Shown here piece by piece: positions 7,397 through 64,000 of a stretch of 64,000 nucleotides of DNA. A model generated the notes under the pieces. The model did no database searches and had not been told where the DNA came from. It saw nothing but the letters and a program-made list of their open reading frames with translations. A program made the position numbers and the translations under genes. Within the stretch, counting starts at the first letter, position 1; each line of letters starts with the position of its first letter. Location: contig NZ_VIAR01000003.1 of assembly GCF_006546625.1 (NCBI RefSeq), positions 124,001 to 188,000 of the forward strand. Reading direction: 5' to 3'. This DNA comes from Haloflavibacter putidus (GTDB lineage Bacteria; Bacteroidota; Bacteroidia; Flavobacteriales; Flavobacteriaceae).

Positions 7397-7764
7397 AAGA
7401 TAAGCAAGCAGTTAATCTTTTAGGTTATGCGAGAATACTGTAAAAAATCGGTTGCTCTTTTATTATTTACACTAGCAGTTTTATTATACTCTTTACGGAA
7501 TTATTGAAATTTTTTTTATACTTGATTTGTAGATTGCTTCTATTCTTAAATTCTTATAGCATCAATTTATTTGAACATAATAGCGGTTAGCACCTTCTTT
7601 AAATTAAAATATCATCAACAACTTCCATAAAGAAAGCGTTTTCATAATTCTTTAAATAAAGCTTAATGTGTAATCTTATTAAACTTTTACATATTGAAGT
7701 TAAAACCTGTTAAGTTTGATAGCATATTTTTAAATGATTATTATTTTAAAACAAAATTAAAACT
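7397..7764. other. intergenic region, A+T-rich, no gene seen
   Basis: The gap between the antiporter and the DUF302 pseudogene contains a copy of the over-represented 10-mer CTTTACGGAA at 7491-7500. I see no reading frame, hairpin or RNA signature worth naming. Confidence 0.5.
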
Positions 7765-8685
7765 ATGCTGAAGTTAAACTTACTATTTGCCGCTATTTTT
7801 TTATTGAGTTCTTGCGTCAGCCAAAACACTAATTCTACATTCTCAACAAAAGAAACGCTAAACTCGTCCACGGCTACAGGGGTGGTTTTTTTTTGAAAAT
7901 ACTTTAAAATTAGAAGAGGCTTTAAAAACTGCTTTAGAAGGCAATAATAATATAGGGGTTGTGACAGAAATAGACCATTCTCAAAACGCGACTTCTGTAG
8001 ATTTAGAATTACCACCTACGCAAGTTATTTTCTTCGGAAATCCTAATCTCGGAACTCCATTAATGCAAAAAAATCAATTAGCCGGTTTAGATCTTCCGCA
8101 AAAAGTTTTGTTTTATGAAGATAAAAATCAGGTTTTGTGCTCTATAATAGTACAGAATATCTTGCTTCTAGGTACGGGGTAGGAGAAGTTGAAAGTCTCT
8201 CCAAAACTTCAAAAGCGCTAAATAATCTGGTAAGTACTGCAACTAAAACACAGGGAAAGCATACAAAAAAGCAGAATGTAGGTTTGGAAGAAGGTATAAT
8301 AAATGTTAAAAGCACTACCGATTTTGAATCTACTTACAATAATTTAAAATCGGCTATTGAGGCTAATGAAAATATAAGCGTAATGGGGGAGTTAGATCAT
8401 AAAAAGAATGCTGCAAGTGTGGGGATGAATTTGCGACCTACGAAAGTGATTATGTTTGGAAATCCTAAATTAGGAACGCCTATAATGCATACTAAAAGAA
8501 ACTTAGGTTTAGACTTGCCCCAAAAAATGCTGGTATGGGAAAATGCTAAGGGGAATGTATATATTTCTTATAACAATGCAAACTTCTTAGCTAAAAAGCA
8601 TAGGTTAGAAATGCACGGTCAAAAATTTAAGGAAATTTCTAAAGCGCTGGAAATGTTGGCAAATGCCGCCGCAGAAATTGATTAA
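7765..8685 (+). pseudogene. tandem DUF302 lipoprotein with two frameshifts
   Basis: ATG 7765 opens a lipoprotein (MLKLNLLFAAIFLLSSC, lipobox LLSSC). The frame stops at 7894-7896 in a run of nine T (7886-7894); eight T would continue into ENTLKLEEALKTALEG. A second shift lies in TTTT at 8133-8136, where one added T restores VFVLYNSTEYLASRYG. The two shifts cancel, giving 306 codons. The repaired product has two DUF302 copies: residues about 45-150 (TEIDHSQNATSVDLELPPTQVIFFGNP) and about 190-300 (GELDHKKNAASVGMNLRPT followed by KVIMFGNPKLGTP). DUF302 function is unknown. GTG 8137 could start the second domain alone. Phase variation, true decay or sequencing error in homopolymers are all possible. 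Confidence 0.8.
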
Positions 8686-8766
8686 AATAGCGCTTCGAAG
8701 TTAGTGAAATTTAAATAGTCCTGTTCTTTTTTGCAAACGCATATTATAGAAAAACTAAATTATAAT

Positions 8767-8799
8767 AAAGCAGGAAATACATCGTGAAAATCCTGCTTT
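8767..8799. terminator. bidirectional terminator between DUF302 gene and arsM
   Basis: AAAGCAGGA (8767-8775) pairs with TCCTGCTTT (8791-8799) with a 15-nt loop, in the gap between two convergent genes. The A/T flanks could serve both directions. Confidence 0.65.
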
Positions 8800-8827
8800 T
8801 AATAATCTTTAAATTATATAATAGAAA

Positions 8828-9715
8828 TTAGCAACAATTTGTACTTGGAGAACAACAATCTGAACTCTCAATGTCAGAAAGATTTACTTTTTGTTTATTA
8901 TTTTTTGTACCGGGTTTTTCTGCATAAACGGTAATACTGAAAATTCCTGCTCCATCTTTATTAAAAGTTTCTACCGCTTCTTTAGAAAGATATTTTTCAA
9001 GAATATCGTTAGGAATGCTAATAGGTTTCTCTTTTTGGATTGTAATGTTCTCAAAACCATTATTTTTAATAAGCTCTAAATATTCGGTTTTTTGAATTGC
9101 TCCTGCCACGCAACCTGCGTACATTTCTGCGTCTTCTTGCAACGCGACAGGAAGCTCGCCAACAAGAACAATGTCTGAAATGCTAAAATGACCGCCGGGT
9201 TTTAAAGTGCGTTGTATTTCTGCAATCACTTTCTGTTTATTGGGTACCAAATTTAGCACGCAGTTGCTCACAATTACATCTGCAACATTGTCGTTTACCG
9301 GCATTGCATCAATATCGCCTTCCCTAAACTCGACGTTGTTATAATTCAGTTTTTCTGCGTTTTTACGCGCTTTTTCTATCATAATTGGGGTAAAATCAAT
9401 TCCAATTACTTTGCCGGTATCTCCGGTTTCGTTTCTTGCTACAAAACAATCGTTTCCCGCTCCAGAACCCAAATCTATAACCGTGTCGCCTTTTTCTATT
9501 TTTGCATATTGGGTAGGCAAACCGCAACCTAAACCTAAATCTGCTTCTTCTACATAACCATCGGTTTCAGAGTAATCGTCCATCATAATATTGTAAACTT
9601 TATTAGATGGTGTGGTGGCGCCACAACAAGAAGATGCATTTTCAGTCTTTTCTTGTTCGGCTATTTTTGCGTAGCGTTCTTTTACAATATCTTTTAATTC
9701 TTTTTCGTCTTTCAT
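8828..9715 (-). CDS. arsM: arsenite S-adenosylmethionine methyltransferase
   Basis: A 295-residue cytosolic enzyme that methylates As(III) to volatile or less reactive organoarsenicals. The SAM-binding loop VIDLGSGAGNDCFVA is at about residues 79-92, and the family block GYVEEADLGLGCGLPT precedes it. Cysteines that can bind arsenic are present: the N-terminal CCG pair (SSCCGATT), VSNCVLNLVPNK and YAGCVAGA. The C-terminus ends in a Cys-rich tail (SSDCCSPSTNCC). It lies 44 bases after arsR on the same strand, so both are probably induced by arsenite. No arsenite pump or reductase is in the window. Confidence 0.92.
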   Translation of the reverse strand: MKDEKELKDIVKERYAKIAEQEKTENASSCCGATTPSNKVYNIMMDDYSETDGYVEEADLGLGCGLPTQYAKIEKGDTVIDLGSGAGNDCFVARNETGDTGKVIGIDFTPIMIEKARKNAEKLNYNNVEFREGDIDAMPVNDNVADVIVSNCVLNLVPNKQKVIAEIQRTLKPGGHFSISDIVLVGELPVALQEDAEMYAGCVAGAIQKTEYLELIKNNGFENITIQKEKPISIPNDILEKYLSKEAVETFNKDGAGIFSITVYAEKPGTKNNKQKVNLSDIESSDCCSPSTNCC

Positions 9716-9759
9716 AATTATAATTTAATGTTGTTTTTCAATTCTAAATAATAATAGAA

Positions 9760-10089: not shown

Positions 10090-10105
10090 TTTATTAGTTA
10101 TTGTT

Positions 10106-10117
10106 ATATTGCAATAT
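10106..10117. promoter_or_regulatory. candidate ArsR operator palindrome
   Basis: ATATTGCAATAT is a perfect 12-bp palindrome 17 bases upstream of the arsR start codon. Its position and symmetry fit a dimeric ArsR site. This is inferred from location only. Confidence 0.45.
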
Positions 10118-10358
10118 TACGATTAATAATTTAAACTGTAAATCTTTAGAGGCTATTTTTTGTAAAAAGCATTTTTTATATGTTAACAAAAAAGCAATCT
10201 TTTTTGAAAAAGGTTAAAATTCACTTAAGCTTTCTGCAATAGCATATTCGGTTACAACCAAAACTTGATAGCCTGTTTTTATATTTGTAAATTGTAGCAA
10301 AATTTTCCGTAAAGCTATATAAAATGCTTGGGTAACATAATTAAAAGCAGGCAAAGAA

Positions 10359-11741: not shown

Positions 11742-11760
11742 TTTTTGGTACTGATTTTTA

Positions 11761-12592: not shown

Positions 12593-12900
12593 AAAATCTT
12601 CTGTTCTTTACGGAAAACATAAAGGTAAATAATCGTAGACCTGCATGTAGCTAAAGAAAATGTAAAGTTGATTGACAAATCTTTATATAATTTATGAATC
12701 CTTAAAACCTTTAAGGACGTATTATCACAAAAAATATTTTGCATTTGGGGAAATTATTTGAAAATCAGCTGTTTGTTTAAAAATTTCTTTATATTTAGTT
12801 TTTGCAACTGCTAAACTTATACTCCCTAGAATAGCTTTATTTATTGCGTTGCCCATTTTTTCTAGCTTCAATAAATAAAGCCATCTAACCCCCTTAAGTT

Positions 12901-13624: not shown

Positions 13625-16600
13625 CTAGCAATCTATGCAACAAGTTGTTGGTACAGCGGTAAGTGGCGAGCTGCGGAGTATTCTGTATTTACCCAAATCT
13701 GTGCTTAGCGGCTTTCCATCATCTGCAGGAGTTTCTGCAGCAGCTTTTATGTCTCTACCAAGATCTTCTTCCAGTTGCTGTCCAATTTTTAAATCGAGTT
13801 CATTTTTAACGCTTTGCGAAACTTCTTGTCGTAGCGTATAATCGTCTGTAATGCCACTAACGTGTTCTACAATATTTCGAATATACCCAAATACTTCCAC
13901 ACAAAGAACACTTAGCGAAGCATCTTCTGGTAAACCATAAGCTTGTAAAGCTTGGGTTATTTCTTCCAATTCAAAATCACCCACGGCATATTGTGTTCTT
14001 TTCTTGTCGTGTAAATCTACAATAGCACCCGTTTTAGGATCTCTGTAAGGTTCTTGGTATCTATGCTCTAGTTTTATTTCGGTAAGCAAAATATTCCTGA
14101 ATTCTTTGCCGTCTGCTTGCGCTACTTGAGCATAAAGCATAGCCCAAATAGAAGTTCGCGGCGGAAAAGCAGTCACGTTTTTACCATTGTTTACTGCCAT
14201 AGCATAAGGCGCGCTAACCTGTATTTTATTTTTAGTTCGTTGTACAGAACAATTTAAATTTGGCGCAGGATGTTGTAAACCGGTCAACCGGAATGGGCGG
14301 CCAAAACGACCCTGAGCAGTACTCCAAAGTTGCTCGGTATGGCCAAACCTAAACTCATAGGTATGAAAACCAAAAAGCTCTGCACTTTCATGGTGTAAGC
14401 CTTCTGGTAGTGGCAGTAAATAAAAATGTCTTTCCTTGCCGTTCTGACTGGTGTTTTGAGCCTTTTGCATTTTTCGCATAGCTTTTAAACCTGCGTTTTC
14501 TTGCCCAGATATGGGAGTGATTACCCGGGTAAACTCAGGATCTATTGGCAAAGGCGCATCTTTTTCTACTGAAAAAAGAGAAGGATGGTTGTTGCTAATT
14601 AATTGGTCTGGGGCGTAGGCTACTTGTCTTGCAAACAAAGCATCTCTATCGTCGTTGGGTTTTTCGTTAAATTCTAACCATAAATATTTTCTTCTGGCTT
14701 CTGTACGCGAATACTTATCCTCTTTTATATAAGGAGAAAGAGCAATTCCCGAGCCGATAATTTCTGGGGTTTGACTTGGCGTTATCGTAACGGGAAGTAG
14801 TAGGTTTTCACTTTCAAAAGCCTCAGTCTGCAAATCAAAAGAAATAGCTGTTTTTATTTGAGGGTTAATTTTATACTTTACGGAAATTGTATCTGCCAGA
14901 TCTCCTTTGGTAGGAAGCGGATCTATGGCATCAATAAACACTATTCTGGTATATTCCCGATAAACTTTGTTATCTTCTCCTTCTTGTATGGCTTGAAAAG
15001 AGGCAGTTCTTAGCAACTCGGCATCTCCGATTTGTCGGTAGGGAATTCCGGCCATTTTTTGCTCCCGTTCTAAAAAATCTGTAGGATTGTTTTTTCTACT
15101 CATTTTCCGTTCAATCGTAAAAGCAAGGGTTTGTAGGCCGTCCCAAGTCCAATCTCTATCAATTTTAAAACTGGTAGCCACCAACCATTTATTGGAGAGC
15201 TCATTTTTCCCTGCAAAGGTAATACTGCTTTTATCTGGACTTAAGCTGTGGGCAATAAAATTACTGCACCAAAATTGTATGCGTTCTCCTTTTTCTGCCG
15301 TTAGGGTCATATTTTTAGGATCGTTATTGCAACTTACTTCCAGTTGTTGCGCCAAACGTTGCAAAATATTTGGCAGGCCGTTTTGGGAGGGGGTTATTTT
15401 ATCTACCGAAATTCTCCCATTAATACGTTTTACAGGATCTGGTTGAAGATAAATACCTTGTATAACCCGCGCAGCTTTGGTTTCTTTTAATAAATTACTT
15501 TCGCTTTCACTATTTCTACGCATATGCAGTACGGTGGTTTTTCCGTAAAGGCTTTTATCTTTCGTTGAGTTTGTATGGCCCCAATAATTGGCATCTTCTT
15601 TTCCTTTTGCGCGCAAACTAACGCGCAGGTTTCTGCAAGTTGGCAGTAGCAGCGAGCCGTTATTGTTAGGATCTTCTTCAAAACTTTGATCAAAATCTAA
15701 GACAGGAATATCTTTATAGGTAAAATTCAGGTCCAGTTCTTTTTCAAAATCTTCTTTAAATTTACGCGAAGTGGTGTAGAGCGTTATAAAATTATCTTGG
15801 CCGCTATCACTACGCAGGTTATCCATTTTTAAGCTTTGCACTTCTACTTTTATCTCGACTTGCAGCACATCTGGATCGGCAATTCCTATAACTACTTTTG
15901 CTTGGCCGTTACCATCTTTTTCTTCTAATTGTTTTTCTATAGATTTTTGTAGTAAAGCTACCGGATCTTCATATTTTCCGGTGTAAACCACAGATGGATA
16001 ACCTATTAAAGGGCGTTTTATTTGTAGCAAATCGCCTTCAAAACTCAAATCGTCGCTCGAGGTTTTTATTTCTTCTTTATTTACAATTCGGACAGCGTGC
16101 GGAGAAACATAGCGTTTAAAATGAATTTCTGCTTCGTTGCTTAAATTGTTTTCGTTAGTGTTTGCATTAAGGCTTGGTCCGCCGCCGGTTGTATCTGTAA
16201 GTCGCACACGAAATTTATAAGATTTACCATACCTAAGTTTGTTTATTTTACTTTGGGCTTGGTAAGTATCCGAAATTTTTACGTTTCTCTTGGTGCCATT
16301 TACATCGTTTAAGGCCGCTTTTTGAATGGCTTCGTAATTTCTGTACAAATCTGCCGCAGTTTTGTCCGGTAAGACCATAGAATGGTTATTCCAATTGGCA
16401 AAATACATTGGCAACCAATAGTTTGTTTCTGCTGTTTCTAAGGCTTTTGTAGGGTAAACTTGAAAAGGCAATTCGCCTTCGTATTTGCCAAGTTCAATAT
16501 CTTCCAAAAATATTGGTCCTTTACTTTTTACTGCGGTAAGGCTTTCGTAGTGCCAGTGATCGGGCGTACCTATTCCTACTTCTTTTACGTCAATATTATA

Positions 16601-17764: not shown

Positions 17765-20700
17765 CTATGCAATTTGTCTTGTTTCTTCCCACTCTTCATG
17801 AAAACTAATATCAATAAAAAAGGCCACGCTAATATCTAAGCCAAAAGCAACGCTTGCCCTGCAGTTGGTTGGGGAGTTATCATTAGATTTTTCTATGGCA
17901 CCTTTCGCTTCAATAACAATGGTTACACCAATAGCTCCGCCTAAAAGTTCGGCGTGGCCGCGAAACATCATTATGGCTGTAATTGCTACCGTATTTCCGG
18001 TATCTGCATTTACTTCTATACTGGTCATAAATTGAAGACTGGCATTACCTACTACCGGTAAACCAACTGCCAGTTGCGCACCAAAACCAAATTTCATCGC
18101 CACGGCCAGAGCCGGCGCAGTGTCTGCGGTAAGTTTAAGGTCTACATTTCCTATTGCATAAATAGTTGCCCCGCCAATACTCACGCACATTACTTGCAAG
18201 CCACCGTGGAAAATAAAAAACGCCCCAGCCGTAGGAAGTAAATCTTTTGGATTGCTGGTAACTTTAAGAGCTGCGTTAAAATTAAAACCAAGACGCATAC
18301 TTGCTTCTAATTTTAGCGGAACTTGGGGAGAGTTGTATAAATCTCCCATTGGAAATTGAATAAGACCAATTTCTTTTTTTGCCTCGTACTTATATTCCCA
18401 AATATTGGCGTTGTTGCTCATTGCGACTTGTAATCCTTTTTTAAGCGCATCTGCATAATCGTCTGAAGACAAATCTTTTAAAATTTCTAAAATCTGAATT
18501 ACCGGTTCAACGGCATCGCTAAATTTAATTTTTGGTGTTGGTAAGGCATCCACATCAGCAGAAATCACTCCGCCAAAATTGGCTTCTTTTCCTTTTTCAT
18601 TATTAAAGTTTCCTTGTACCGTCATCAAATCGTCAAACGGGCCTAAGCTTACTACCATCGCTAGGTTGTTTAACCTTCCGCGCCATTGATCTTCTAAATC
18701 TTCGGCAAAAGAATCTAGGTTATAATCTAATTTGCTTTCTCCTGCATCTGATTCATAATCAATTCTTATTTTAAAATGTTCTGTATCTATTAAATTGTAT
18801 TCCGTAAAGGGAATATCAAAATTCAAGGCTTTGTTTATTTCGTCTCCAACTCCTTTTTTAAGCAATTGGTAGCCTTGATCTATTAATTTTTCTTCATCTA
18901 CTTTCGGGATTATCTCCAAAAGCTCGTATACTTTTTTGGCTCCATCTGTCACGTCTTGTAATTGTTGAAAAAGAGCATCTACAGTGCCGTTTTCTAATTT
19001 TCCTTTTAGCAATTCTACGGTTTCGCCAAAATCATCTACAGCATCGCCAATATTGGGAAAAATCCCTTTTGAATTCAATAAACGATAGCCATCTGCTAAC
19101 AAGGGTGGGGTTTTGCTTAAAAGTTTGTTGATACCTTTTTGAAAAGAAGGCGTTAAGAAAAGTACTTTTTGTGTGTCTAAGTTTTGTAAGAAGCCGTAGT
19201 TGATAGTATCTAAGGCTATCGTCTGCCGCAATAATTCGGTAGGATTTGCAATTCGCTGTAAGTTTTGTAAATCGGCTTCATCTATTAGCTTACCTAAATC
19301 CCATTTTCCTTTACGGATTAGCGGAACAGACATCGCGGTGTCTAAAGGTGTTACCGTGCCGTCTTTTACGGTATGTTTTACCATTGTCCAGCTTCCTTCT
19401 TTTGGCAGAACTACCGAGCCGCGCGCTGCTACTATAAAAATGGGTTGTTCGTTTTCGTCTTTGGCGTTGTTTACATCTATACGGTTTATTTTCATGTATT
19501 GATCTGTCCCGGCAATTTTTATCGTACAGTTTACCGGTCCGCCAATAGAATTGTTTTGAAACTTGAGCAAACGTTCTAAAACCTCTGGGGTTAGTGCCGT
19601 GCCTGGGGGAGATAATTGCACAAAACCTTGTACACCTTTGGAGGCAACCAGATTTGTTGTAGTATTATCTTGGGTAGAATTTTGTCCTTCAATAACATCT
19701 TCTATGGCAATATCTGCATCAAAAGTTAAACCTTGCAAGATTACTTCTTTACTAGTTCCTTCGGTTTGCATCGTATCCTTATACTCTAGATTATTGTCTT
19801 CGCGAATATTACGAATGTTGTACAGACCGTGAACCAAACCTGCATGGTATTCGTATGGATTTGGCTCATTGTTTATCCCGAAATAAAATTTACCATCACT
19901 TTCTGCTTGCCAGCCACTATCTAACCTGGCAATATAACCGTTGCTTAAACGTAAAATAGTAATGGTGCGCACTACAAAAATTCCCCAAGGGTAAATAATA
20001 CTTTTTACTTGAACCACTTCTTGTGCGGTACGACCGGTAGCTACATTAAAAGTAGCCTGACTGGTTTCCGCGAAAGCGGCATTTTTATTATACCAGTCGC
20101 TAAAAATATTTGCGCCATAACCGCTTAGACCTATTTTGTTTAAAGGAACTCCAGGCCGAGCTACATCGTCTAAATTATTTGAAATTTCACCAAATTCGTT
20201 GTTGAATATTTTATGCACACTAGCACCCAAAGTACTGTAATTACCTTGTCTGCCGCCCATATCCTGAACATTTGCCAGCTGAATGGTCATGCCTTGAAAT
20301 AAGTCGCCTTCTGTTGCAAAAGAGCTGCCGGCAGTAAGTTCTAACTGTATGCCGCCCTTAATGTTTTCTTTAAACTTTGGCGCAACGTTTTTTATAGTGG
20401 GAGCTTTATCTTGTCCAGATCTTTTGTCTAAAACACTTAAACCCCACATGCCAAAAGGCAAATTGAAAGAAGCATAAGTAATAGCATCATCTTGATTTTT
20501 ATATACTTTTTCTAAATAATTAGACAAAGGGATAGGCGCCAAGGGAACAGCAGTTTTGCTGAGGTTACCAATATAGGTAGGAAAACCATCGTTGGGGAAA
20601 TAATTAAAACCTTGCCGCGGATCGTTAGCTTCATTGCTGGTAATAACTTGTTCGGAAAAATTAAATATTGGCTCCCAAGAAATTTGTGGCAACATAAAAG

Positions 20701-23161: not shown

Positions 23162-23269
23162 AATAATGCCGCATCTATTGGTATGCACAAGTTAGATAGT
23201 AAGAAGCTTTTCTAAAATAGCTACTGGTAGTCATTTTTATGTAATTCTTTAGGTCTTACGTTTTATTTT

Positions 23270-23303
23270 TTCCGTAAAGTAAACAGGATAATTGCTTTAC
23301 GGA
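23270..23303. promoter_or_regulatory. inverted pair of CTTTACGGAA forming a hairpin upstream of the giant genes
   Basis: TTCCGTAAAG (23270-23279) and CTTTACGGAA (23294-23303) are perfect inverted copies of the window's over-represented 10-mer, separated by 14 bases. They lie in the divergent gap between the giant operon (minus) and the GNAT gene (plus). They could be a protein-binding dyad or a hairpin; the divergent setting argues against a terminator. Confidence 0.5.
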
Positions 23304-23386
23304 AGCGACAAGTGCTGCCATAAAGCAAAAGCCTTCGTGAAGTATTTATAGGTATATTCGTCAAAAAAATAGAAGGAGTAACAATT

Positions 23387-36568: not shown

Positions 36569-36688
36569 AGTAGTAGGGTTTTACCTTATCAATATACTGA
36601 ATTTTAGCCACTAACAAAAGTTAATTTTTTCTGTTTTTTGTATAAAATGGAATTAGCTTTTATTCTTTCCGTAAAGTTTATTTTGTTT

Positions 36689-46080: not shown

Positions 46081-48705
46081 ATGAAATCACAAGAAATACG
46101 CGATAAATTCCTTTCCTTTTTTCAATCGAAACAACATAAAATTGTGCCTTCTGCGCCAATGGTTATGAAAGACGATCCTACGTTAATGTTTACCAACGCC
46201 GGGATGAACCAGTTTAAAGAGTATTTTTTAGGAAACGCAAAATCTAAGTATAAGCGTATTGCAGATACCCAAAAATGTTTACGCGTAAGCGGAAAACACA
46301 ACGATTTGGAAGAGGTAGGAAAAGATACTTACCACCACACCATGTTCGAGATGTTGGGTAATTGGAGTATTGGCGATTATTTTAAGGAAGACGCCATTGC
46401 TTGGGCTTGGGAATTTTTAACAGATGAATTAAAAATAAATCCCAACAATCTGTATGTTACCGTTTTTGAAGGCGATAAAAAAGATGGCCTCGCAAAAGAT
46501 GAAGAAGCGTTTGATTTGTGGAAAAAACACATTGCCCAAGAAAGAATTTTATTAGGCAATAAAAAAGATAACTTTTGGGAAATGGGCGATCAAGGTCCGT
46601 GTGGGCCGGCTTCAGAAATTCACGTAGATATTAGAACCGAAGAAGAGAAAGCAAAAATCCCCGGAAAAGATTTGGTAAACCAAGACCATCCGCAAGTGGT
46701 AGAAATCTGGAACCTCGTTTTCATACAATATAACAGGATGGCCAACGGCAGTTTAAAAGAATTACCCGCAAAACACATAGATACCGGAATGGGTTTTGAA
46801 CGCCTGGCAATGGTAATGCAAGACAAGCAATCTAATTATGATACAGACGTTTTTACCCCGCTTATTCGCGAAATAGAAACCATTACCAATGCTACATACG
46901 GCAGTAATGACGCTTCCGCGGAAGAAACAAATATCGCCATTCGGGTAATTGCAGACCACGTTCGTGCAGTAACATTCGCAATTGCAGACGGCCAGTTGCC
47001 AAGCAATAATGGCGCCGGATATGTTATTAGACGTATTTTGCGTCGCGCTATACGATACGGATTTACTTTTCTTAACACCAAAGAAGCATTTATCTACAAA
47101 CTGGTAAATGTTTTATCCCAGCAAATGGGCGAAGCTTTCCCAGAGCTAAAAAAACAACAAAACCTTTGCGAAAAAGTAATAAAAGAAGAAGAAATTTCTT
47201 TCCTTAAAACTTTAGATCAAGGTTTAAGCTTGTTAGATAGCATTATAGCAAATGCCGACTCGAAAGAAATTTCCGGCAAAAAAGCTTTTGAGCTTTACGA
47301 TACCTATGGTTTTCCTATAGATTTAACCGCTTTAATTTTAGAGGAAAAAGGCTATAACTTAAATCAGCAGGAATTTGAAAAAGAATTACAAAAACAAAAA
47401 GAACGTTCGCGCTCTGCCGCACAAAGTAGCGCGGGAGATTGGGTAGTTTTACGCGAAGACGACGAAGAAGAATTTATAGGTTATGACCAATTAAAAACCG
47501 ATGTAAAAATCACCAAATATCGTCAAGTAGAAAGTAAAAAAGAAGGTAAATTATACCAGTTGGTATTTAATCTAACCCCATTTTATCCCGAAGGTGGCGG
47601 TCAAGTTGGCGATAAAGGTTATTTAGAAACCCCAAACGGCAATGTTGTTTATATTTTAGATACCAAAAAAGAAAACAACCTGATTATACATATTACTAAA
47701 AATCTGCCGCAAGAAATAGAAGCCAGGTTTACAGCTGTGGTAGACGAGCAGCACAGAAACAGAGCTGCTGCCAACCATACAGCAACGCACTTGTTGCACC
47801 AAGCTTTACGGAATATTTTAGGAGACCACGTAGAACAAAAAGGTTCTTTGGTGCATCCAGATTATTTGCGGTTCGACTTTTCGCACTTCAGTAAAGTTTC
47901 TAAAGATGAGTTGCAAGAAATAGAGCAATTTGTAAATGCAAGAATTCGGGAGCAAATAGCTTTAGAAGAAGAGCGTAATGTACCATTTCAAGAAGCTTTA
48001 GATAAAGGTGCTACCGCATTGTTTGGCGAAAAATATGGCGATACGGTAAGAACCATTTGCTACGGAAACTCCATGGAGTTATGTGGCGGAACCCACGTAG
48101 CAAATACCAGTAACATCTGGCATTTTAAAATAATTTCTGAGGCTGCCGTAGCGGCTGGAGTTAGACGTATTGAAGCCATTACCGGAGATGCCGCCAAAGA
48201 ATTTTTAACCCAACAAAGCGAGAGTTTTAATGCGTTAAAACAATTGGTGAAAAACAACAAAGAACCGCTAAAAGCAGTAAGTGCTTTACAGGAAGAAAAT
48301 CAGCAGCTTAAAAAGCAAATTGAGCAATTTAAAAAAGAAAAAGCAGGTAACGTAAAAGGCGATTTAAAAGCTGCCTTAACGGAAGTAAACGGAATTAAAT
48401 TTTTGGCAAAAAAAGTAGATTTAGACGCTGCTGCTATGAAAGATTTGTCCTTTCAATTGGGGGGCGAAGTAGATAAGCTGTTTTTAGTACTAGGTTCCGA
48501 GCATAATGGTAAAGCTCTGTTGTCTATTTACATCGATAAACAATTGGCAGAAGAAAAAGAACTCAACGCCGGAAAAATGGTAAGAGAACTCGGTAAATTA
48601 ATTCAAGGCGGCGGCGGCGGACAAGCATTTTTTGCAACCGCTGGCGGCAAAAACCCGGACGGTCTTGAAAATGCCCTAACCGAAAGTAAAAACTATATAA
48701 GTTAG
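46081..48705 (+). CDS. alaS: alanyl-tRNA synthetase
   Basis: An 874-residue class II synthetase that charges tRNA-Ala and edits mischarged Ser/Gly. The catalytic domain has [14 protein letters not shown] and [15 protein letters not shown] near the N-terminus. The editing domain carries the zinc motifs HTATHLL and CGGTHVANT. The C-terminal oligomerisation domain ends with [17 protein letters not shown]. Two odd short motifs lie inside the gene: CTTTACGGAA at 47804 and the palindrome-like CGCTTCCGCGGAAG at 46911, both read through as ordinary codons. Confidence 0.97.
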
Positions 48706-48759: not shown

Positions 48760-49710
48760 ATGAAACTACAAACCCAATTAAATATTCCTGAGCAAGAACC
48801 TAAAATTAGCTACAAATCTAAGTTGCTGTTGTTGGGTTCTTGCTTTACGGAAAATATAGGGGAGAAGTTTGTGTACTTTAAATTCCGCCACGTTCAAAAT
48901 CCGTTTGGAATTTTGTTTCATCCTTTTGCCATAGAAAATTTAATCGTCAAGGCTGTTCGGCAAAAAGAATTTACAGAAAAAGATATTTTTCAGTACAACC
49001 AAAATTGGCATTCTTTTGAAGCACATTCGCGTTTAAGTCAGCCAAGGCCGGAAGCAATTCTTAAGGCTTTAAACGGCGGAATAACCCAAACCCATAAAGC
49101 CATACAAGAAAGCTCGCACCTAATTATTAGTTTAGGAACTGCTTTTATTTACCAACATTTAGAAAGCAAAAACTACGTAGCCAATTGCCATAAAGTTCCG
49201 CAAAAGGAATTCCGTAAAGAATTAATTTCTGCCCAAAGAGTTTACAAAAGTTTAGAAAATATAATTGCCTCTTGTAGAACTTTAAACCCCGATTTACAGT
49301 TTATTTTCACGGTTTCGCCGGTGCGTCACGCAAAAGATGGCTTGGTGCAAAACAATAGAAGTAAAGCGCAATTAATTTCGGCAATTCACGAAGTGATTGA
49401 CCAAAAAGAAAAAGCAGCTTATTTCCCTTCTTACGAATTATTGCTGGACGAGTTGCGCGATTACCGTTTTTATACCCAAGATATGTTGCATCCAAACACA
49501 ACCGCCATTCAATACATTTGGGAAAAATTTACACAAACTTGGTTAGCCAAAGAAGCTATACCAACTATGAAAAAAGTAGATGCTTTGCAAAGAAATTTAC
49601 AGCACAAAGCCTTTAATCCGCAAAGTGAAGCGCACCAAAAGTTTTTGCAAAAATTAAAAGAACAAAAAGCAGAATTGAAAACACAATTTCCTTTTATGAA
49701 TTTTAGCTAG
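48760..49710 (+). CDS. GSCFA-domain protein (SGNH-hydrolase-like)
   Basis: A 316-residue protein of the GSCFA family, named for the block seen here as LLLLGSCFTENIGEKF near the N-terminus. Other conserved pieces are VQNPFGILFHP, SLGTAFIYQH, FTVSPVRHAKDGLVQNNRSK and YTQDMLHPN, the last supplying Asp/His-like catalytic positions of a GDSL/SGNH fold. The substrate is unknown; envelope polysaccharide deacylation is a guess from related folds. Its 3' end overlaps the convergent rhodanese gene by 8 bases. Confidence 0.88.
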   Translation: MKLQTQLNIPEQEPKISYKSKLLLLGSCFTENIGEKFVYFKFRHVQNPFGILFHPFAIENLIVKAVRQKEFTEKDIFQYNQNWHSFEAHSRLSQPRPEAILKALNGGITQTHKAIQESSHLIISLGTAFIYQHLESKNYVANCHKVPQKEFRKELISAQRVYKSLENIIASCRTLNPDLQFIFTVSPVRHAKDGLVQNNRSKAQLISAIHEVIDQKEKAAYFPSYELLLDELRDYRFYTQDMLHPNTTAIQYIWEKFTQTWLAKEAIPTMKKVDALQRNLQHKAFNPQSEAHQKFLQKLKEQKAELKTQFPFMNFS

Positions 49711-53482: not shown

Positions 53483-54556
53483 ATGGCGAAATTTCATAAA
53501 TTAAATGTACAGGATGTTTATAAAGAGACGACAGACTGTACGGTTATAACCTTTGATGTACCCGAAAACCTACGGACAGATTTTAAATTTAACCAAGGGC
53601 AACACCTAACTTTACGGAAAGAAATAGACGGCGAAGATGTACGTCGTTCTTATTCTTTGTGTTCCAGTCCGTACGACAAAGAATGGAAAGTGGCCGTAAA
53701 AGAAATTCCGACCGGAATTTTTTCAACCTATGTTAACCAATCTTTAAAAAAGGGCGAAGTTTTGGAAGTTATGGCGCCCAGCGGCAAGTTTGGAGTAGAA
53801 GTTGCAGAAGATAATGCAAAGAATTATTTGTTTTTTGCTGCGGGCAGTGGTATTACCCCAGTGCTTTCTATGATCAAATCGCATTTGGCGGTAGAGCTAA
53901 ATTCTACTTGCAAGCTGTTTTATGTAAATAAGACTGCAAAATCTATTATTTTTAAAGAAGAGCTGGAGCAATTGCGCAATCAATATTTTGGAAGGTTGGA
54001 AATTTATTATTTCCTAACCCAAGAAAAACGCGATATCGATTTGTTCAATGGAAGGTTTGATGATGAGAAGATGGAAGTATTAACCCGTACATTTATCGAT
54101 ATTCCAGATACAAATGAAGTCTTTTTATGCGGTCCTGAAAATATGGTCATGTACTTAAAAGACTATTTAATAAATGCGGGTTTACCCGAAGAATTAGTAC
54201 ATTTTGAATTGTTTGTAACCGGTCTTTCAGAAGAAGATATTGCCAGGACAAAACGCCTGGCAAAGCAAAATGTAGAAGGTACAGAAGTAACGATTGTAGA
54301 TGGCGGAAAAGAATTTCAGTTTACCATGACCCAAGATTATGATAATATTTTGGATGCAGCCTTAGGGGCTGGAGCAGATTTGCCTTTTGCTTGTAAAGGC
54401 GGGGTTTGCAGCACGTGCAAATGCGAAGTTGTAGAAGGAGAAGTAGAGATGAAGGTAAACTATGCTTTAGAAGAAAAAGAACTGGAGCAAAATTTGGTAC
54501 TCAGTTGCCAATCGGTTCCTACATCTAAAAAGGTGAAAATGGATTTTGACGTGTAA
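53483..54556 (+). CDS. paaE: phenylacetyl-CoA epoxidase reductase subunit
   Basis: A 357-residue NADPH-dependent ferredoxin reductase feeding electrons to PaaABCD. The FAD-binding N-terminal half has RRSYSLCSSP; the NADP part has FFAAGSGITPVLSMI and VFLCGPENMVMYLKDYL. The C-terminal plant-type 2Fe-2S domain carries FACKGGVCSTCKCEV and LSCQSVP (C-x4-C-x2-C and a distal C). It is the first gene of the operon here. A CTTTACGGAA copy at 53610 reads as Leu-Arg-Lys codons. Confidence 0.95.
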   Translation: MAKFHKLNVQDVYKETTDCTVITFDVPENLRTDFKFNQGQHLTLRKEIDGEDVRRSYSLCSSPYDKEWKVAVKEIPTGIFSTYVNQSLKKGEVLEVMAPSGKFGVEVAEDNAKNYLFFAAGSGITPVLSMIKSHLAVELNSTCKLFYVNKTAKSIIFKEELEQLRNQYFGRLEIYYFLTQEKRDIDLFNGRFDDEKMEVLTRTFIDIPDTNEVFLCGPENMVMYLKDYLINAGLPEELVHFELFVTGLSEEDIARTKRLAKQNVEGTEVTIVDGGKEFQFTMTQDYDNILDAALGAGADLPFACKGGVCSTCKCEVVEGEVEMKVNYALEEKELEQNLVLSCQSVPTSKKVKMDFDV

Positions 54557-56070: not shown

Positions 56071-56175
56071 ATTACAAATTTGAAATGAAGAATAATAAAT
56101 GTAAAATTTAAAAGTGTCTTCGCTATTCAAATTTTGAACTTTAGCGTTTTACATTTTAAATTTTTCTGTTTGAAA

Positions 56176-56940
56176 ATGAAAAAAATGAATAAAGATTTTT
56201 TAATAAAATACCTTTACGGAATAGCCGACAATTCGCTTATTTTGGGACAACGGCTGGGAGAATTAACCGGACACGGACCAACTTTGGAAACCGATATTGC
56301 GCTTACCAACATTTCTTTAGATTTGTTTGGGCAAGTACGCAGTTATTTTCAATATGCTGCACAAATCTCAGAAAAAGAAGTGACTGAAGATGATTTGGCT
56401 TTTTTGCGTACGGAACGCGAATACCTGAACGTACTTTTGGTTGAGCAACCTAATACCAATTTTGCTTATACAATTGGACGACAATTTTTGTTTGATCATT
56501 TTCATATTCTGTTAATGACAGAGCTACAAAAATCTACAGATGATACGTTGGTGGCAATCGCCAAAAAAAGTATCAAAGAGGTAAATTATCATAAGCGTTT
56601 TTCTTCGGATTGGGTAAAACGTTTGGGAGACGGCACAGAAGAAAGCAAAGGAAAAATGCAAATGGCCATTAACGATTTATGGCGATTTACAGACGAATTA
56701 TTCCATACCACAAAAGCAGATGAAGAAATGATTAAAGCTGGAGTTGGCGTAGATGTAAAACAATTAAAAGATACGTATTACAAAAATGTATCCGAGATTT
56801 TAGAAGAAGCTACTTTAGAAGTTCCAGATTTAAAATACTTCCAAAAAGGCGGCAAAGACGGAATTCATACAGAGCATATGGGTTTTATTTTAAGCGATAT
56901 GCAGTATATGCAGCGCACGTATCCCGGAATGAAGTGGTAA
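56176..56940 (+). CDS. paaC: phenylacetyl-CoA epoxidase structural subunit PaaC
   Basis: A 254-residue ferritin-like subunit that partners PaaA but lacks the active di-iron centre. Conserved blocks: LYGIADNSLILGQRLGELTG, ALTNISLDLFGQVRSYFQYA and KEVNYHKRFSSDWVKRLGDG. ATG 56176 (MKKMNKDFLIKYL) is used; the frame opens at TTG 56134. A CTTTACGGAA copy at 56212 is read as Leu-Tyr-Gly codons. A small palindrome pair follows the stop codon. Confidence 0.93.
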   Translation: MKKMNKDFLIKYLYGIADNSLILGQRLGELTGHGPTLETDIALTNISLDLFGQVRSYFQYAAQISEKEVTEDDLAFLRTEREYLNVLLVEQPNTNFAYTIGRQFLFDHFHILLMTELQKSTDDTLVAIAKKSIKEVNYHKRFSSDWVKRLGDGTEESKGKMQMAINDLWRFTDELFHTTKADEEMIKAGVGVDVKQLKDTYYKNVSEILEEATLEVPDLKYFQKGGKDGIHTEHMGFILSDMQYMQRTYPGMKW

Positions 56941-57599: not shown

Positions 57600-58382
57600 A
57601 TGAGCAAAAATATACAAGTAGAAATAAAAGATCGAGTGGCGAAAATAAGTTTAAACCGCCCAAAAGTATTCAACAGTTTTAATAGAGAAATGGCTTTTGA
57701 GCTGCAAGACGCTCTCAAGAAAGCAGCTGAAAACGATGAGGTTCGAGCTATTTTACTTACCGGAAACGGAAAAGCTTTTTGCGCCGGTCAAGATTTAAAA
57801 GAAGTAACAGACCCAGACTTAAATCCGGGTTTTAAAGCCATTCTTGAAGAACATTACAATCCCGTTATAAAATTAATTCGTGAAACTTCAAAACCAATAA
57901 TTGCTGCTGTTAATGGTGTGGCAGCTGGTGCTGGAGCAAATATAGCTTTGGCTTGTGATATCGTTGTTGCTTCAGAAAGCGCCGCTTTTATTCAAGCCTT
58001 TAGTAAAATTGGTTTGATACCGGATTCTGCCGGTACATTTTTCTTACCACGATTAATCGGTTTTCAAAAAGCTTCGGCTTTAGCCATGTTGGGCGATAAA
58101 ATTGATGCTAAAGAAGCCGAGCGATTAGGAATGATTTACAAATATTTTTCAGCAGAAAACTTTACGGAAGAAAGCGTAAAGCTAGCACAAAAAATGGCAA
58201 AAATGCCCACAAAAGCACTAGCGCTTACCAAAGAAGCCTTAAACCAATCGCTCACCAATAATTTAGACGAACAATTAGCTTTAGAGAGTAAATTTCAAAT
58301 TGAAGCCGCTTCAACAGCAGATTATAAAGAAGGTGTAAGCGCTTTTGTAGAAAAGAGAAAACCGGAGTTTAAGGGAGAATAA
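57600..58382 (+). CDS. paaG: enoyl-CoA hydratase/isomerase family protein, probable ring-epoxide isomerase
   Basis: A 260-residue crotonase-fold protein, expected to isomerise the ring-1,2-epoxide of phenylacetyl-CoA to the oxepin. Oxyanion-hole segments: LLTGNGKAFCAGQDLKEVTD and NGVAAGAGANIALACDIVVA. The Asp of IPDSAGTFFLPRL fits the PaaG catalytic acid. The paaF-type hydratase could be a separate gene outside the window. It follows paaD after the palindromic repeat. Confidence 0.9.
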   Translation: MSKNIQVEIKDRVAKISLNRPKVFNSFNREMAFELQDALKKAAENDEVRAILLTGNGKAFCAGQDLKEVTDPDLNPGFKAILEEHYNPVIKLIRETSKPIIAAVNGVAAGAGANIALACDIVVASESAAFIQAFSKIGLIPDSAGTFFLPRLIGFQKASALAMLGDKIDAKEAERLGMIYKYFSAENFTEESVKLAQKMAKMPTKALALTKEALNQSLTNNLDEQLALESKFQIEAASTADYKEGVSAFVEKRKPEFKGE

Positions 58383-60120: not shown

Positions 60121-60129
60121 AATTTTATT

Positions 60130-60934: not shown

Positions 60935-60945
60935 AAGGATACTTT

Positions 60946-61202: not shown

Positions 61203-62414
61203 ATGAACGCATATATCATAGACGGCATTAGAACGCCAATAGGAAATTACAAAGGTACTTTATCGCCCGTAAGAACAGACGATTTAGGAGCTTTGGTCAT
61301 CAAAGAAATCGTAAAAAGAAACCCGAATATTCCTAAAAACGCTTACGCCGATGTAATTATGGGTTGCGCCAATCAAGCCGGTGAAGATAACAGAAACGTT
61401 GCCAGAATGTGTTCGCTTTTGGCAGGATTACCACACTCCGTTCCGGGAGAAACCGTGAACAGACTTTGTAGTAGCGGACTTTCGGCTATTATTCACGCCA
61501 ATCGAGCTATAAAAACGGGCGACGGAGATGTATTTATTTCCGGCGGGGTAGAACATATGACGCGCGGGCCTTACGCAATTGCTAAACCATCTTCAGCTTA
61601 TGGTAACGATGCTAAAATGTACGATACCAGTTTCGGTTGGCGATTTGTAAATCCAAAAATGCACGAAATGTACGGTACCGATGGGATGGGCGTTACCGCA
61701 GAAAATTTGGTAGATAAATATAAAATTTCACGGGAAGACCAAGACGCTTTTGCGTATTGGAGCCAGATGAAAGCTACTAAAGCTCAAGAAAACGGTCGTT
61801 TGGCCAAAGAAATAGTGCCTGTAGAAATTCCGCAAAGAAAAAAAGAGGCCATTCATTTTGATAAAGATGAGTTTGTAAAACCTAAAACTTCCAAAGAAAT
61901 TTTGGCCAAATTACGCCCTGTTTTCCGTAAAGAAGGCGGCAGCGTAACCGCAGGAAATGCCTCCGGACTTAACGATGGCGCCGCTGCAACCATTGTAGCA
62001 TCAGAAAATGCTGTAAAAAAGTATGGTTTGAAACCAATGGCAAAAATCCTGAGTTCTGCAGTAGTAGGCGTAGAACCACGAATAATGGGAATTGGTCCGG
62101 TAGAAGCTTCTAACAAAGCATTAGAAAAAGCGGGATTAACCATGGACGATATGGATATCATAGAATTGAACGAAGCTTTTGCAGCACAAGCCTTGGCTTG
62201 CATCAGAGCTTGGGGATTAAAAGACGACGACCCGCGATTAAATCCTAATGGTGGCGCCATTGCAATTGGGCATCCACTCGGCGTTACCGGAGCAAGATTA
62301 GCTCATACCGCTGCTTTAGAATTACAACTTACCGGCAAAAAATACGCTCTAGTTACCATGTGTGTTGGTGTAGGGCAAGGTTATGCTGCGGTTATTGAAA
62401 ATGCTGAGCTATAG
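61203..62414 (+). CDS. paaJ: 3-oxoadipyl-CoA thiolase
   Basis: A 403-residue thiolase that cleaves 3-oxoadipyl-CoA to succinyl-CoA and acetyl-CoA. The nucleophilic Cys is in VNRLCSSGLSAIIHANRAI. The C-terminal His and Cys are in GGAIAIGHPLGVTGARL and ALVTMCVGVGQGYAAVIENA. Length is standard. A partial, diverged copy of its last 15-20 codons lies 30-100 bases beyond the stop, marking a past duplication or insertion. Confidence 0.95.
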   Translation: MNAYIIDGIRTPIGNYKGTLSPVRTDDLGALVIKEIVKRNPNIPKNAYADVIMGCANQAGEDNRNVARMCSLLAGLPHSVPGETVNRLCSSGLSAIIHANRAIKTGDGDVFISGGVEHMTRGPYAIAKPSSAYGNDAKMYDTSFGWRFVNPKMHEMYGTDGMGVTAENLVDKYKISREDQDAFAYWSQMKATKAQENGRLAKEIVPVEIPQRKKEAIHFDKDEFVKPKTSKEILAKLRPVFRKEGGSVTAGNASGLNDGAAATIVASENAVKKYGLKPMAKILSSAVVGVEPRIMGIGPVEASNKALEKAGLTMDDMDIIELNEAFAAQALACIRAWGLKDDDPRLNPNGGAIAIGHPLGVTGARLAHTAALELQLTGKKYALVTMCVGVGQGYAAVIENAEL

Positions 62415-62440
62415 CGAAATCCCGAGAGCGCAGCGATTCT

Positions 62441-62509: not shown

Positions 62510-62672
62510 GAAGCAAAAGGAAACAAGTTTTGATAAGCAAAAACAAAGACATTTTTAAAAATTGAATAAAAAATACAAATAAGATTATCCACTTTTTGAG
62601 AATATAAGTTTTTGATAACCTGATTAGTGGAACTTATATTTATTAATTATATTTACAAAAAATAAATATAAA

Positions 62673-62918
62673 ATGGCAACATTCACCTCATCTCTACCGG
62701 ATCATTTATTAAAAGAATTGGCAAAAACAGCCAAAGAATTAAAGATGCCCAAGAATAAAGTTATAGAAAAAGCTTTGGAGATTTTTTTAGATGAAGTTCA
62801 AAGGGCTAAATATGCTGAATCTTACCGAAGGGCGGCAAAAGATAAAGATATGATGGCGATGGCAGAAGAAGGAATGGCAGATTACTTTAAACAGCTTCAA
62901 GATTTAGATAAAGAATGA
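62673..62918 (+). CDS. ribbon-helix-helix antitoxin
   Basis: An 81-residue protein with an N-terminal ribbon-helix-helix DNA-binding fold (TFTSSLPDHLLKELAKTAKE, PKNKVIEKALEIFLDEV) and a C-terminal acidic helical tail (AMAEEGMADYFKQLQDLDKE) suited to wrap the toxin. It overlaps the MazF-like gene in an ATGA, the usual antitoxin-first order. Such proteins repress their own promoter; no clear dyad was picked out upstream. It is an insertion between paaJ and paaZ. Confidence 0.88.
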   Translation: MATFTSSLPDHLLKELAKTAKELKMPKNKVIEKALEIFLDEVQRAKYAESYRRAAKDKDMMAMAEEGMADYFKQLQDLDKE

Positions 62919-63247
62919 AGCAAGGAGAAATCTGGCAGGTTTATTTCGATCCAATAAGAGGCAATGAACAAGGAGGGAACCGTCCAGCAGTAGTAGTTAG
63001 TGGGAATACCTTAAATAAAAATTTGGGTGTAGTGATTGTTTGTCCATTAACTAGTTCTATTCATAATTTTGAAGGAAATCCAGTTTTGGAGGCGACACAG
63101 GAGAATGGTTTGAAGCGAAAATCTGAAATAATGATTTTCCATATCCGGTCTCTATCTAAAGATCGTTTTAAACGAAAATTAGGTAATATTACTATGCCGG
63201 AGCTAAGTCAAATCAAGCAAACAATTTACGATATTTTAAAGTATTAG
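62915..63247 (+). CDS. MazF/PemK-family endoribonuclease toxin
   Basis: A 110-residue toxin expected to cut mRNA at short motifs. Family blocks: QGEIWQVYFDPIRGNEQGGN followed by RPAVVVSG, VVIVCPLTSSIHNFEGNPVL, and SEIMIFHIRSLSKDRFKRKL. The catalytic Arg of GGNRPAVV and the Thr of CPLTSS are present, so it looks active. It is coupled to the antitoxin by a 4-base overlap. Its place inside the paa operon probably reflects a chance insertion that stabilises the region. Confidence 0.9.
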   Translation: MKQGEIWQVYFDPIRGNEQGGNRPAVVVSGNTLNKNLGVVIVCPLTSSIHNFEGNPVLEATQENGLKRKSEIMIFHIRSLSKDRFKRKLGNITMPELSQIKQTIYDILKY

Positions 63248-63345
63248 ATTCATTTTATTTTTTATAGATTGGGTTTTGTTCTTTATTATAAAATATATTT
63301 AACAGACGGCTATTGGGAGAACAATAGAGTTAAAAAAAATAAAAA

Positions 63346-64000
63346 ATGCAAAAATTACAAAGTTATATTAACGGAAAATGGGTAGAAGGTTCTGGCGAAG
63401 GCGTACCAATGCTAGATGCCGTTACCGGAGAAACCATTGCGTTAAGTGATACAAAAGGGCTTGATTTTGATCAAGCTCTAAAATATGGTAGAAAAAAAGG
63501 AGAAGCTTTACGGAAAATGACATTCCAAGAACGCGGATTAATGCTTAAAAAATTGGCCTTTTACCTGCAAAAAAAGAAAAAACAATTTTACGAGGTAAGC
63601 TACCGTACCGGAGCCACCAAAGCAGATAGTTGGGTAGATATTGAAGGCGGATTTGGAAACCTCTTCGCCAATGCTTCTTTACGGAAAATTTTCCCAAACC
63701 AGCCTTTTGATGTGGAAGGAGATCCTATAGATTTATCGCGTGGCGGTCGTTTTATGGGGCATCATATTTTGGTACCAAAAGAAGGAGTCGCGGTACACAT
63801 CAATGCTTTTAATTTTCCGGTTTGGGGAATGTTAGAAAAATGTGCCGTAAACTGGATGGCCGGAATGCCTGCAGTGGTAAAACCAGCCACCAATACTTCG
63901 TTTTTAACAGAAGCGGTAGTGCGCGAAATCATTAATTCGGGAATTTTACCCGAAGGTTCTTTACAACTTATTTCAGGTTCTGCGCGTTCTATTTTAGATA
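63346..64000 (+). CDS. paaZ: PaaZ, oxepin-CoA hydrolase / aldehyde dehydrogenase (N-terminal part, cut by window edge)
   Basis: The open frame from ATG 63346 runs off the window after 218 codons. It begins MQKLQSYINGKWVEGSGEGV and continues with the aldehyde dehydrogenase fold: LRKMTFQERGLMLKKLAFYL and INAFNFPVWGMLEKCAVNWM, ending in SGSARSILD. Full-length PaaZ opens the oxepin ring with a C-terminal hydratase domain and oxidises the aldehyde with this N-terminal domain. Two CTTTACGGAA copies (63506, 63677) lie in it, both read as Leu-Arg-Lys codons. Confidence 0.93.
   Translation, partial: MQKLQSYINGKWVEGSGEGVPMLDAVTGETIALSDTKGLDFDQALKYGRKKGEALRKMTFQERGLMLKKLAFYLQKKKKQFYEVSYRTGATKADSWVDIEGGFGNLFANASLRKIFPNQPFDVEGDPIDLSRGGRFMGHHILVPKEGVAVHINAFNFPVWGMLEKCAVNWMAGMPAVVKPATNTSFLTEAVVREIINSGILPEGSLQLISGSARSILD

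Follow-up and report, generated by a model that had tools for sequence, protein, structure and literature searches.

Results

A ten-base word repeated across the window

The stretch of DNA analyzed here (the window; 64,000 nucleotides) corresponds to positions 124001–188000 of contig 33 in the genome of a marine flavobacterium, designated G000 (2,923,547 bases, 2.92 Mb, 53 contigs), and it carries 22 exact copies of the 10-base word CTTTACGGAA, 13 on the plus and 9 on the minus strand, lying within open reading frames (ORFs) in both orientations and in the spaces between them (Table 1). An earlier inspection of the letters by themselves (hereafter, the sequence-only reading) had listed the same 22 copies, with a shift of one base in one start position (given there as 23294 instead of 23295). 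The genus set used for comparison consists of 16 genomes of a genus taken to be Mesonia (Flavobacteriaceae), among them G000 itself and G005, its sister species.

Table 1 Location and context of the 22 CTTTACGGAA sites of the window
Position	Strand	Surroundings	Remark
7491..7500	+	intergenic, 94 bases after K+/H+ antiporter gene (5936-7396)	
10305..10314	-	between divergent ORFs 9760-10089 (-) and 10359-11669 (+)	
12606..12615	+	between divergent ORFs 11761-12303 (-) and 12901-13611 (+)	
14876..14885	+	antisense within ORF 13625-17722 (-)	
15541..15550	-	sense within ORF 13625-17722 (-)	
18800..18809	-	sense within ORF 17765-23188 (-)	
23270..23279	-	between divergent ORFs 17765-23188 (-) and 23387-23851 (+)	left arm of inverted pair (starts 25 bases apart)
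23295..23304	+		right arm of inverted pair; aligned place in G005 has TTTTTCGGAA
25029..25038	+	between divergent ORFs 23875-24930 (-) and 25231-27897 (+, P-type ATPase)	
31455..31464	-	sense within ORF 31229-31813 (-)	
33853..33862	+	sense within ORF 33653-34117 (+)	
36251..36260	-	sense within ORF 35300-36568 (-)	
36667..36676	-	between divergent ORFs 35300-36568 (-) and 36714-37364 (+)	
47804..47813	+	sense within 874-aa ORF 46081-48705	ORF presumably AlaS, judging from its sequence
48843..48852	+	sense within ORF 48760-49710 (+)	
49210..49219	-	antisense within ORF 48760-49710 (+)	not intact in G005
53610..53619	+	sense within ferredoxin-reductase-like ORF 53483-54556	
56212..56221	+	sense within ORF 56134-56940 (+)	not intact in G005
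58160..58169	+	sense within ORF 57600-58382 (+)	
61923..61932	-	antisense within ORF 61203-62414 (+)	
63506..63515	+	within predicted gene of longer contig	no closed window ORF covers the site
63677..63686	+	within predicted gene of longer contig	171 bases past previous copy; one mismatch in G005

CTTTACGGAA ranks as the commonest of all 10-mers in the window, and CTTTACGGAAA, with 12 copies, is the commonest 11-mer containing it. In 100 dinucleotide-preserving shuffles the word appeared 0.30 times on average and twice at most, and a third-order Markov model predicts 0.48 copies; the 0.1–0.2 copies expected in the sequence-only reading were thus somewhat low, and the huge over-representation claimed there is borne out. 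The excess extends over the whole genome, with 376 forward and 370 reverse copies (746 in total, one per 3.9 kb), whereas the word read backwards, serving as a control, occurs 8 times (4 + 4); in 444.6 kb of G000, 115 copies stand against 2.6 expected from the third-order Markov model. The word is non-palindromic and dispersed on both strands. Flanks of these 115 copies show just a weak preference for A/T, with C avoided immediately after the word (3%), and no longer shared element was detected across them, the 10 bases being all that the copies have in common, which speaks against confinement of the copies to a single repeat element. One-letter neighbors are far rarer, the commonest (T at position 1) numbering 30 against 173 for the word itself in sampled DNA of G000 and G005. 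Eight pairs of copies less than 60 bases apart were found in the 444.6 kb, three of them in the (-,+) inverted arrangement at 24–42 bases, two (+,-), and three direct.

Maintenance of the word at the DNA level

Genes were predicted by a simple coding-score method, by which their borders are approximate. The sample of 700 kb from G000 and G005 contains 173 copies, of which 128 lie within and 45 between predicted genes (0.204 and 0.621 per kb, respectively), so that the word is about three times denser between genes. Genic copies use five of the six reading frames, and not all of them as had been claimed, the sixth being barred by the TAA stop that it would carry. In the codon-controlled test, the encoded peptide is held fixed and the frequency of the CTTTACGGAA spelling is compared with that expected from codon usage; in the five open frames, this spelling was used at 13 of 19, 26 of 40, 44 of 73, 20 of 26, and 25 of 59 places, the expectations being 0.25, 0.34, 1.60, 0.68, and 0.13, respectively. 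Summed over the frames, 128 copies are observed against 3.0 expected with the peptides fixed, and the proposal of the sequence-only reading that selection acts on the DNA and not on the protein, that is, that the word is maintained at the DNA level independently of what is encoded, is thereby strongly supported. The same test gave 3 copies against 2.3 expected in the pooled motif-poor congeners (G011, G004, G014, G002, G013, and G008). When 68 aligned 3-kb bins were divided by conservation into halves of 34 bins each (3 further aligned bins lying outside the halves), 32 sites fell in the less conserved and 19 in the more conserved half, a weak trend; the four unaligned bins, a small number taken as a proxy for acquired DNA, contain one site.

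Fate of the copies in related species

Over 225 kb aligned between G000 and G005 at 89.9% identity, 45 of the 55 aligned copies on contig 33 are intact in G005 (22 copies in unaligned DNA were left out), compared with 36.6% of the flanking 10-mers and 41.7% (429/1029) of permuted words, and the identity drops at both edges of the word. In the reverse direction, 45 of 50 aligned G005 copies are intact in G000 (58 copies, 8 dropped). Of the ten sites altered in G005, one mismatch is present at four and two mismatches at two, with letters substituted in place; the copies differ between the sisters by such substitution and not as inserted elements. Distant congeners have substituted or partly gapped sequence at the aligned places, and for G003, aligned to G000 over 126–230 bases, no site comparison was obtained. 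Because 45 of 55 sites are kept in G005 and the proportions in G012, G006, G001, and G015 are near background, as detailed in the Discussion, the comparison at orthologous places, an approach suggested in the sequence-only reading, points to sites that are held between sisters and turned over between lineages.

Strand polarity

For the analysis of polarity, 20-kb blocks were oriented by GC skew, blocks with a skew below 0.02 being left out. On contig 33, where the skew has one sign almost throughout, 42 copies are on the plus and 35 on the minus strand. The ratio of leading to lagging copies is 53:37 in G000 (p = 0.11) and 25:24 in G005, and in the two genomes pooled it is 17:18 between genes and 61:43 within genes, the latter lean being such as gene direction together with the barred frame would produce. 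No significant leading-strand excess was thus detected in the blocks of either genome or between genes. Strongly polarized words do exist in the same data, namely AGATGTAG (47:4) and GAAGATGT (47:5) in G000 and G005, and GATGAGGT (46:1) in six congeners; these are candidates for a real Chi signal or for FtsK-orienting polar sequences (KOPS), or else for codon effects.

Dialects within the genus

Whole-genome counts of CTTTACGGAA vary widely in the genus: 804 in G005, 746 in G000, 263 in G015, and 255 in G003; 70 in both G001 and G006, 69 in G012, 27 in G007, 18 in G008, and 17 in G002; and 11 in G014, 9 in G009, 7 in G011, 5 in both G004 and G013, and 4 in G010, the last being represented by word counts only, with no 20-kb stretches sampled. 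Dialect forms, CTTTACGGAT (the GAT form) and CTTAACGGA, occur in some of the relatives. The counts of CTTTACGGAA/CTTTACGGAT/CCTTAACGGA are 746/97/30 in G000 and 804/102/36 in G005; 70/169/18 in G001, 70/154/16 in G006, and 69/162/13 in G012, where the GAT form is the main one; and 255/37/145 in G003 and 263/61/98 in G015, where CCTTAACGGA is a second form. Altogether, 7 of the 16 genomes are clearly enriched in some form, and 9 have little or none. The codon-controlled test is strong for both the GAT form and the degenerate class of words in G003/G015, many of whose genic copies stand in one or two frames, a less clean picture than that of CTTTACGGAA in G000; CTTTACGGAA itself is denser between genes in G003/G015 (0.17 versus 0.07). 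Since the motif-rich genomes do not form one clade apart from the other members of the genus according to AlaS identity, the word probably dates from early in the history of the genus and has since disappeared from the branch comprising G004, G010, G011, G013, G014, and G002.

Other words were considered in the motif-poor congeners (G011, G004, G014, G002, G013, and G008). CTAACGGA and CTAGCGGA were rejected as related words, being found mainly in two frames with 1 and 0 intergenic copies, respectively, and are probably codon-driven; CTGCGGAA occurs in all six frames with 6 intergenic copies. Separately, the sampled 200 kb of G001 (L018–L027) contain 22–23 copies of a repeat family with words such as CCAATCCACAAC and ATCCTAGTTTGG, which was removed by the dispersal filter as clustered and is perhaps an array.

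Candidate uptake machinery

Of the proteins in the Riemerella transformation set, ComEC and the DUF5689 pair were looked for in Mesonia. ComEC and DUF5689 are encoded in 16 of 16 genomes, with a homologue of the putative channel gene at the same locus in all 16; the full domain check of this locus was made in G000. There, contig 52 (locus L264) contains a 929-aa putative channel gene (6780-9569), in which CarboxypepD_reg domains pass the cut-off. The next gene (9599-10945) encodes a 448-aa lipoprotein with DUF5689, DUF5017, and choice-of-anchor J domains, which matches the NCBIfam M949_1556 family below the cut-off of that model. Within the region 5597-10945, which includes this pair, a predicted gene of the endonuclease/exonuclease/phosphatase family lies upstream of the channel gene on the other strand and could be part of a DNA uptake complex. 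It is itself preceded by an 887-aa gene in which the TonB-receptor domains are complete. A weaker DUF5689 hit, a 577-aa protein with a secretion tail whose gene lies some 32 kb away from comEC in contig 52, was considered as the Riemerella orthologue and rejected, Pfam favoring the 448-aa lipoprotein. Searches against solved structures gave no match for the channel gene product and one weak match for the lipoprotein.

The arrangement thus corresponds to that in Riemerella, with ComEC and a CarboxypepD_reg gene adjoining a DUF5689/DUF5017 lipoprotein gene. The secretion/pilus ATPase family PF00437, which would stand for the type IV pilus of a Neisseria-type system, passes the cut-off in 4 of the 16 genomes (G002, G012, G013, and G014) and gives weak matches, below the cut-off, in the other 12, including G000, G005, G003, and G015, with the reservations that a draft genome cannot prove absence and that ComP was not searched.

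Identity of the channel to that of G000 is 95% in G005, 76–79% in G003, G015, and G004, and 60% (over a fragment of about 450 aa) in G001, G006, and G012, whereas the identities of AlaS for the same three groups are 95, 78–81, and 83; because the channel pattern departs so strongly from that of AlaS, it suggests that the channel/DUF5689 pair underwent exchange or fast change. The idea that the pair tracks the dialects was rejected, its similarity pattern not matching the words, as was the presence of ComEC as a marker of motif-rich species, which does not separate these from motif-free ones. ComEC is itself about 30–45% identical between the main Mesonia lineages (L248–L263), AlaS being about 70–85% identical, which is fast change for an inner-membrane channel.

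A possibly related word in other Flavobacteriaceae

A count of CTTTACGGAW covered 397 genomes of the family, three of which belong to Mesonia; among the 394 others, the top value is that of G325, where 109 copies stand against 21 of the control. In a screen of named loci longer than 10 kb, CTTCGGAAA, which equals the Mesonia word minus two middle bases, ranked ninth and was chosen because of this likeness. Among 149 genomes (2 of Mesonia), its counts against the control reach 1048/115 in G092, 921/91 in G042, 817/58 in G105, and 613/76 in G069, and exceed three times the control in 16 of the 147 non-Mesonia genomes (in G052 on small numbers, 29 versus 5) and not in the other 131. The codon-controlled test of CTTCGGAA in 74 named loci (80 before the removal of 6 shorter than 10 kb) was positive at p < 0.001 in 16, including four of Aequorivita, two of Salinimicrobium, and those of Marixanthomonas spongiae, Marinirhabdus gelatinilytica, Galbibacter mesophilus, and Christiangramia bathymodioli; no codon-controlled excess of CTTCGGAAA/CTTCGGAA was detected in seven pooled Aquimarina loci (5 versus 3.2) or three Winogradskyella loci (1 versus 1.2). 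A single 20-kb stretch of G042 (L268 1-20000) has 22 copies of CTTCGGAAA/CTTCGGAA, in all six frames and between genes. Split by GC skew, CTTCGGAA has 68 leading and 89 lagging copies (p = 0.11; 15 of 17 loci, two with low skew dropped). In Mesonia, it is at expectation in G000/G005 (15 versus 17.3) and raised in G011 (16 versus 3.4). Confinement of CTTCGGAAA and CTTTACGGAW to one strand over long contigs was also considered and rejected, since three minus-strand copies are present in the initial 20 kb of contig 1 of G105. Codon-independent enrichment of CTTCGGAA without strand bias is seen in L268 1-20000 (G042), L041, L043, L039, L048, and L057, and CTTCGGAA is possibly a sister uptake-like word of other genera; its kinship with CTTTACGGAA, proposed after their likeness had been seen, is to be taken as suggestive.

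Other features of the window

An Eco57I-type DNA methyltransferase gene (157-2082) sits in a 24.6-kb low-GC stretch without CTTTACGGAA (contig 33, 106845-131490), 37% of which aligns to G005; although cytochrome bd genes are found there too, part of this stretch may be an acquired island. The adjacent minus-strand ORFs 13625-17722 and 17765-23188 are very large (1365 and 1807 aa), and no Pfam or NCBIfam matches were found for either of them. Palindromic words around GCTTCCGCGGAAGC (also CTTTCGCGGA and CTTACGCGGA) recur in the window and in stretches of G003 and G007 and look like a separate hairpin-type repeat.

Discussion

The results described above lead us to regard CTTTACGGAA as an uptake-sequence-like self tag of the Mesonia species from which the window comes, an assignment to which we give a probability of about 0.6, uptake being inferred from the behavior of the word in the genomes. 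The word is over-represented and dispersed, originates by point mutation, is denser between genes, and has dialects in related species, all of which are features of uptake sequences. Among the roles offered for it by the sequence-only reading, namely, uptake sequence, Chi-like signal, and nucleoid or segregation motif, the first is the best supported, and the other two are disfavored because the word has no orientation relative to replication.

Such words are worth comparing with those of the established systems. In Neisseriaceae, eight dialects of the DNA uptake sequence (DUS) have been described, one with an inserted base (wadDUS), together with some genomes having no obvious DUS (Frye et al. 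2013, PMC3630211). CTTTACGGAA resembles them in being a 10-mer with hundreds to thousands of dispersed copies, with dialects between related species and with word-poor relatives, but it is an unrelated word in another phylum and occurs at a lower density. According to Mora et al. (PMC7811141), uptake in Neisseriaceae and Pasteurellaceae begins at the type IV pilus, the DNA binder of Neisseria being a minor pilin; unlike Neisseria, the pilus-type ATPase is below the cut-off in G000, G005, G003, and G015. The same account describes uptake sequences as evolving by point mutation and as rare in constrained and newly acquired DNA. As in the uptake signal sequences (USS) of Pasteurellaceae, change by point mutation is seen in CTTTACGGAA, the scarcity in constrained DNA being a weak trend here and acquired DNA being represented by four bins, but the strong contribution of AT-rich flanks described for USS (PMC7811141) differs from the flanks of CTTTACGGAA, which carry little information. 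In machinery the likeness is to Riemerella, placed in the same family in the papers cited, with ComEC and a pfam13620 gene adjoining a DUF5689/DUF5017 lipoprotein gene (PMC8459023, PMC7965970). In R. anatipestifer, the pair RS04915 and RS04920, having the same domains, is reported as essential for transformation, which also needs ComEC, DprA, ComF, RecA, an HHH protein (RS02645), and a DUF1343 protein (Huang et al., PMC8459023). R. columbina is described as preferring its own DNA; unlike the present case, raw k-mer counts gave A-rich words there, for which the authors leave any uptake function open (PMC7965970). In A+T-rich genomes, such words may escape raw counts and become visible against a background model. 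No paper describing an established uptake word in Bacteroidetes was found by title and abstract in the open-licence part of PubMed Central, nor was there a paper on an uptake word, as judged by title, among the matches listed for the exact word.

In the predicted mechanism, a surface or periplasmic part of the uptake apparatus would bind DNA carrying CTTTACGGAA, and fragments bearing the word would be taken up more often and, ComEC being present, recombined into the chromosome; the word would thereby be preserved and spread by molecular drive. Because matches to pilus and type II secretion ATPases fall short of the family cut-off in G000, it is assumed that the DNA would cross the outer membrane via the Riemerella-like channel and lipoprotein pair and not via a pilus with ComP. 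The reader of the word would belong to a TonB-type complex. When the reader changes, the genome would drift to a new dialect or lose the word.

Several observations weigh against this assignment. Between genes, the GAT form is no denser than within them (0.073 versus 0.075 per kb), and 23 of its 32 genic copies are in two frames; the degenerate class of G003/G015 is likewise not denser between genes (0.33 versus 0.40). In the lineage comparison, G012 has 0 of 21 CTTTACGGAA sites intact, G006 and G001 have 1 of 17 each, and G015 has 3 of 14, values close to the 6–9% background for distant congeners. The scarcity of the word in conserved DNA is weak (19 versus 32 sites), and the comparison with acquired DNA comprises four bins. 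As for the machinery, the TonB plug of the 929-aa channel gene is just under the cut-off and its beta-barrel has no Pfam match; ComEC, DUF5689, and the channel gene are present also in motif-free congeners; G004 has a G000-like channel/DUF5689 pair, yet 5 copies of CTTTACGGAA; and the pair of G001/G006/G012 is most like that of the motif-poor G010/G011/G013. Finally, Flavobacterium johnsoniae is reported as not competent under the conditions tested (PMC7965970).

A rival reading, which we think unlikely, is another DNA-level process with no link to uptake, such as a bias of modification or repair, or a regulator with very many sites. In its favor, CTTTACGGAA does not track the candidate receptor pair, and both the reader protein and the uptake itself are putative. 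The process would be comparable to that behind HIP1, the highly iterated short word of cyanobacteria; HIP1 is a palindrome, whereas CTTTACGGAA is not. Such a process must in addition override codon choice in five frames, and the species dialects parallel those of Neisseriaceae.

Somewhat less probable still is that the word is the Chi site of a RecBCD/AddAB-type nuclease, halting degradation and starting recombination repair. Chi and KOPS are short, frequent, and dispersed like CTTTACGGAA; the 746 copies, spread over many contigs, are in the range of those of Chi in Escherichia coli, and the blocks of G000 do lean to the leading strand. Chi and KOPS are, however, oriented with replication, and the lean is not significant in G000, is absent in G005 and between genes, and within genes is what gene direction together with the barred frame would give. 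Moreover, Chi is shared by whole families, in contrast to the dialects and near absence of CTTTACGGAA within one genus, and the higher density between genes is a further point against it.

A chromosome-organizing or segregation signal (KOPS, or a binding site for a nucleoid or division-site protein) is more improbable again: hundreds of dispersed copies would suit it, but CTTTACGGAA is unpolarized while AGATGTAG and GATGAGGT are polarized in the same data, and the word changes rapidly within the genus, although segregation and chromosome-organizing proteins are conserved. Copies of a mobile or repeat element (a repetitive extragenic palindrome or a miniature inverted-repeat transposable element), to which the eight close pairs might point, or codon or protein repeats, can be dismissed almost entirely in view of flanks sharing a weak A+T preference alone, letters substituted in place in G005, and differing peptides in five frames.

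Returning to the uptake-sequence assignment, a wider proposal may tentatively be put forward, which we hold to be rather doubtful at this stage: Flavobacteriaceae might have evolved sequence-specific DNA uptake of their own, using two-part words of the form CTT-(0 or 2 bases)-CGGAA that vary as dialects among genera and species. Aequorivita, Marixanthomonas, and others would use CTTCGGAA, and Mesonia would use CTTTACGGAA, CTTTACGGAT, and CTTNNCGGA; the reader of these words would be a TonB-type outer-membrane uptake complex and not a pilus.

Uptake sequences are a device by which bacterial gene exchange is restricted to a bacterium's own kind, and they are best known from Neisseriaceae and Pasteurellaceae. 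If CTTTACGGAA is one of them, the device would extend to a further phylum, in which a single genus has several dialects and the uptake complex is probably different; such a case would show how these systems arise. The word and the candidate reader genes would then provide a handle on the preference for own DNA and on the unusual transformation genes described for Flavobacteriaceae (PMC7965970, PMC8459023).

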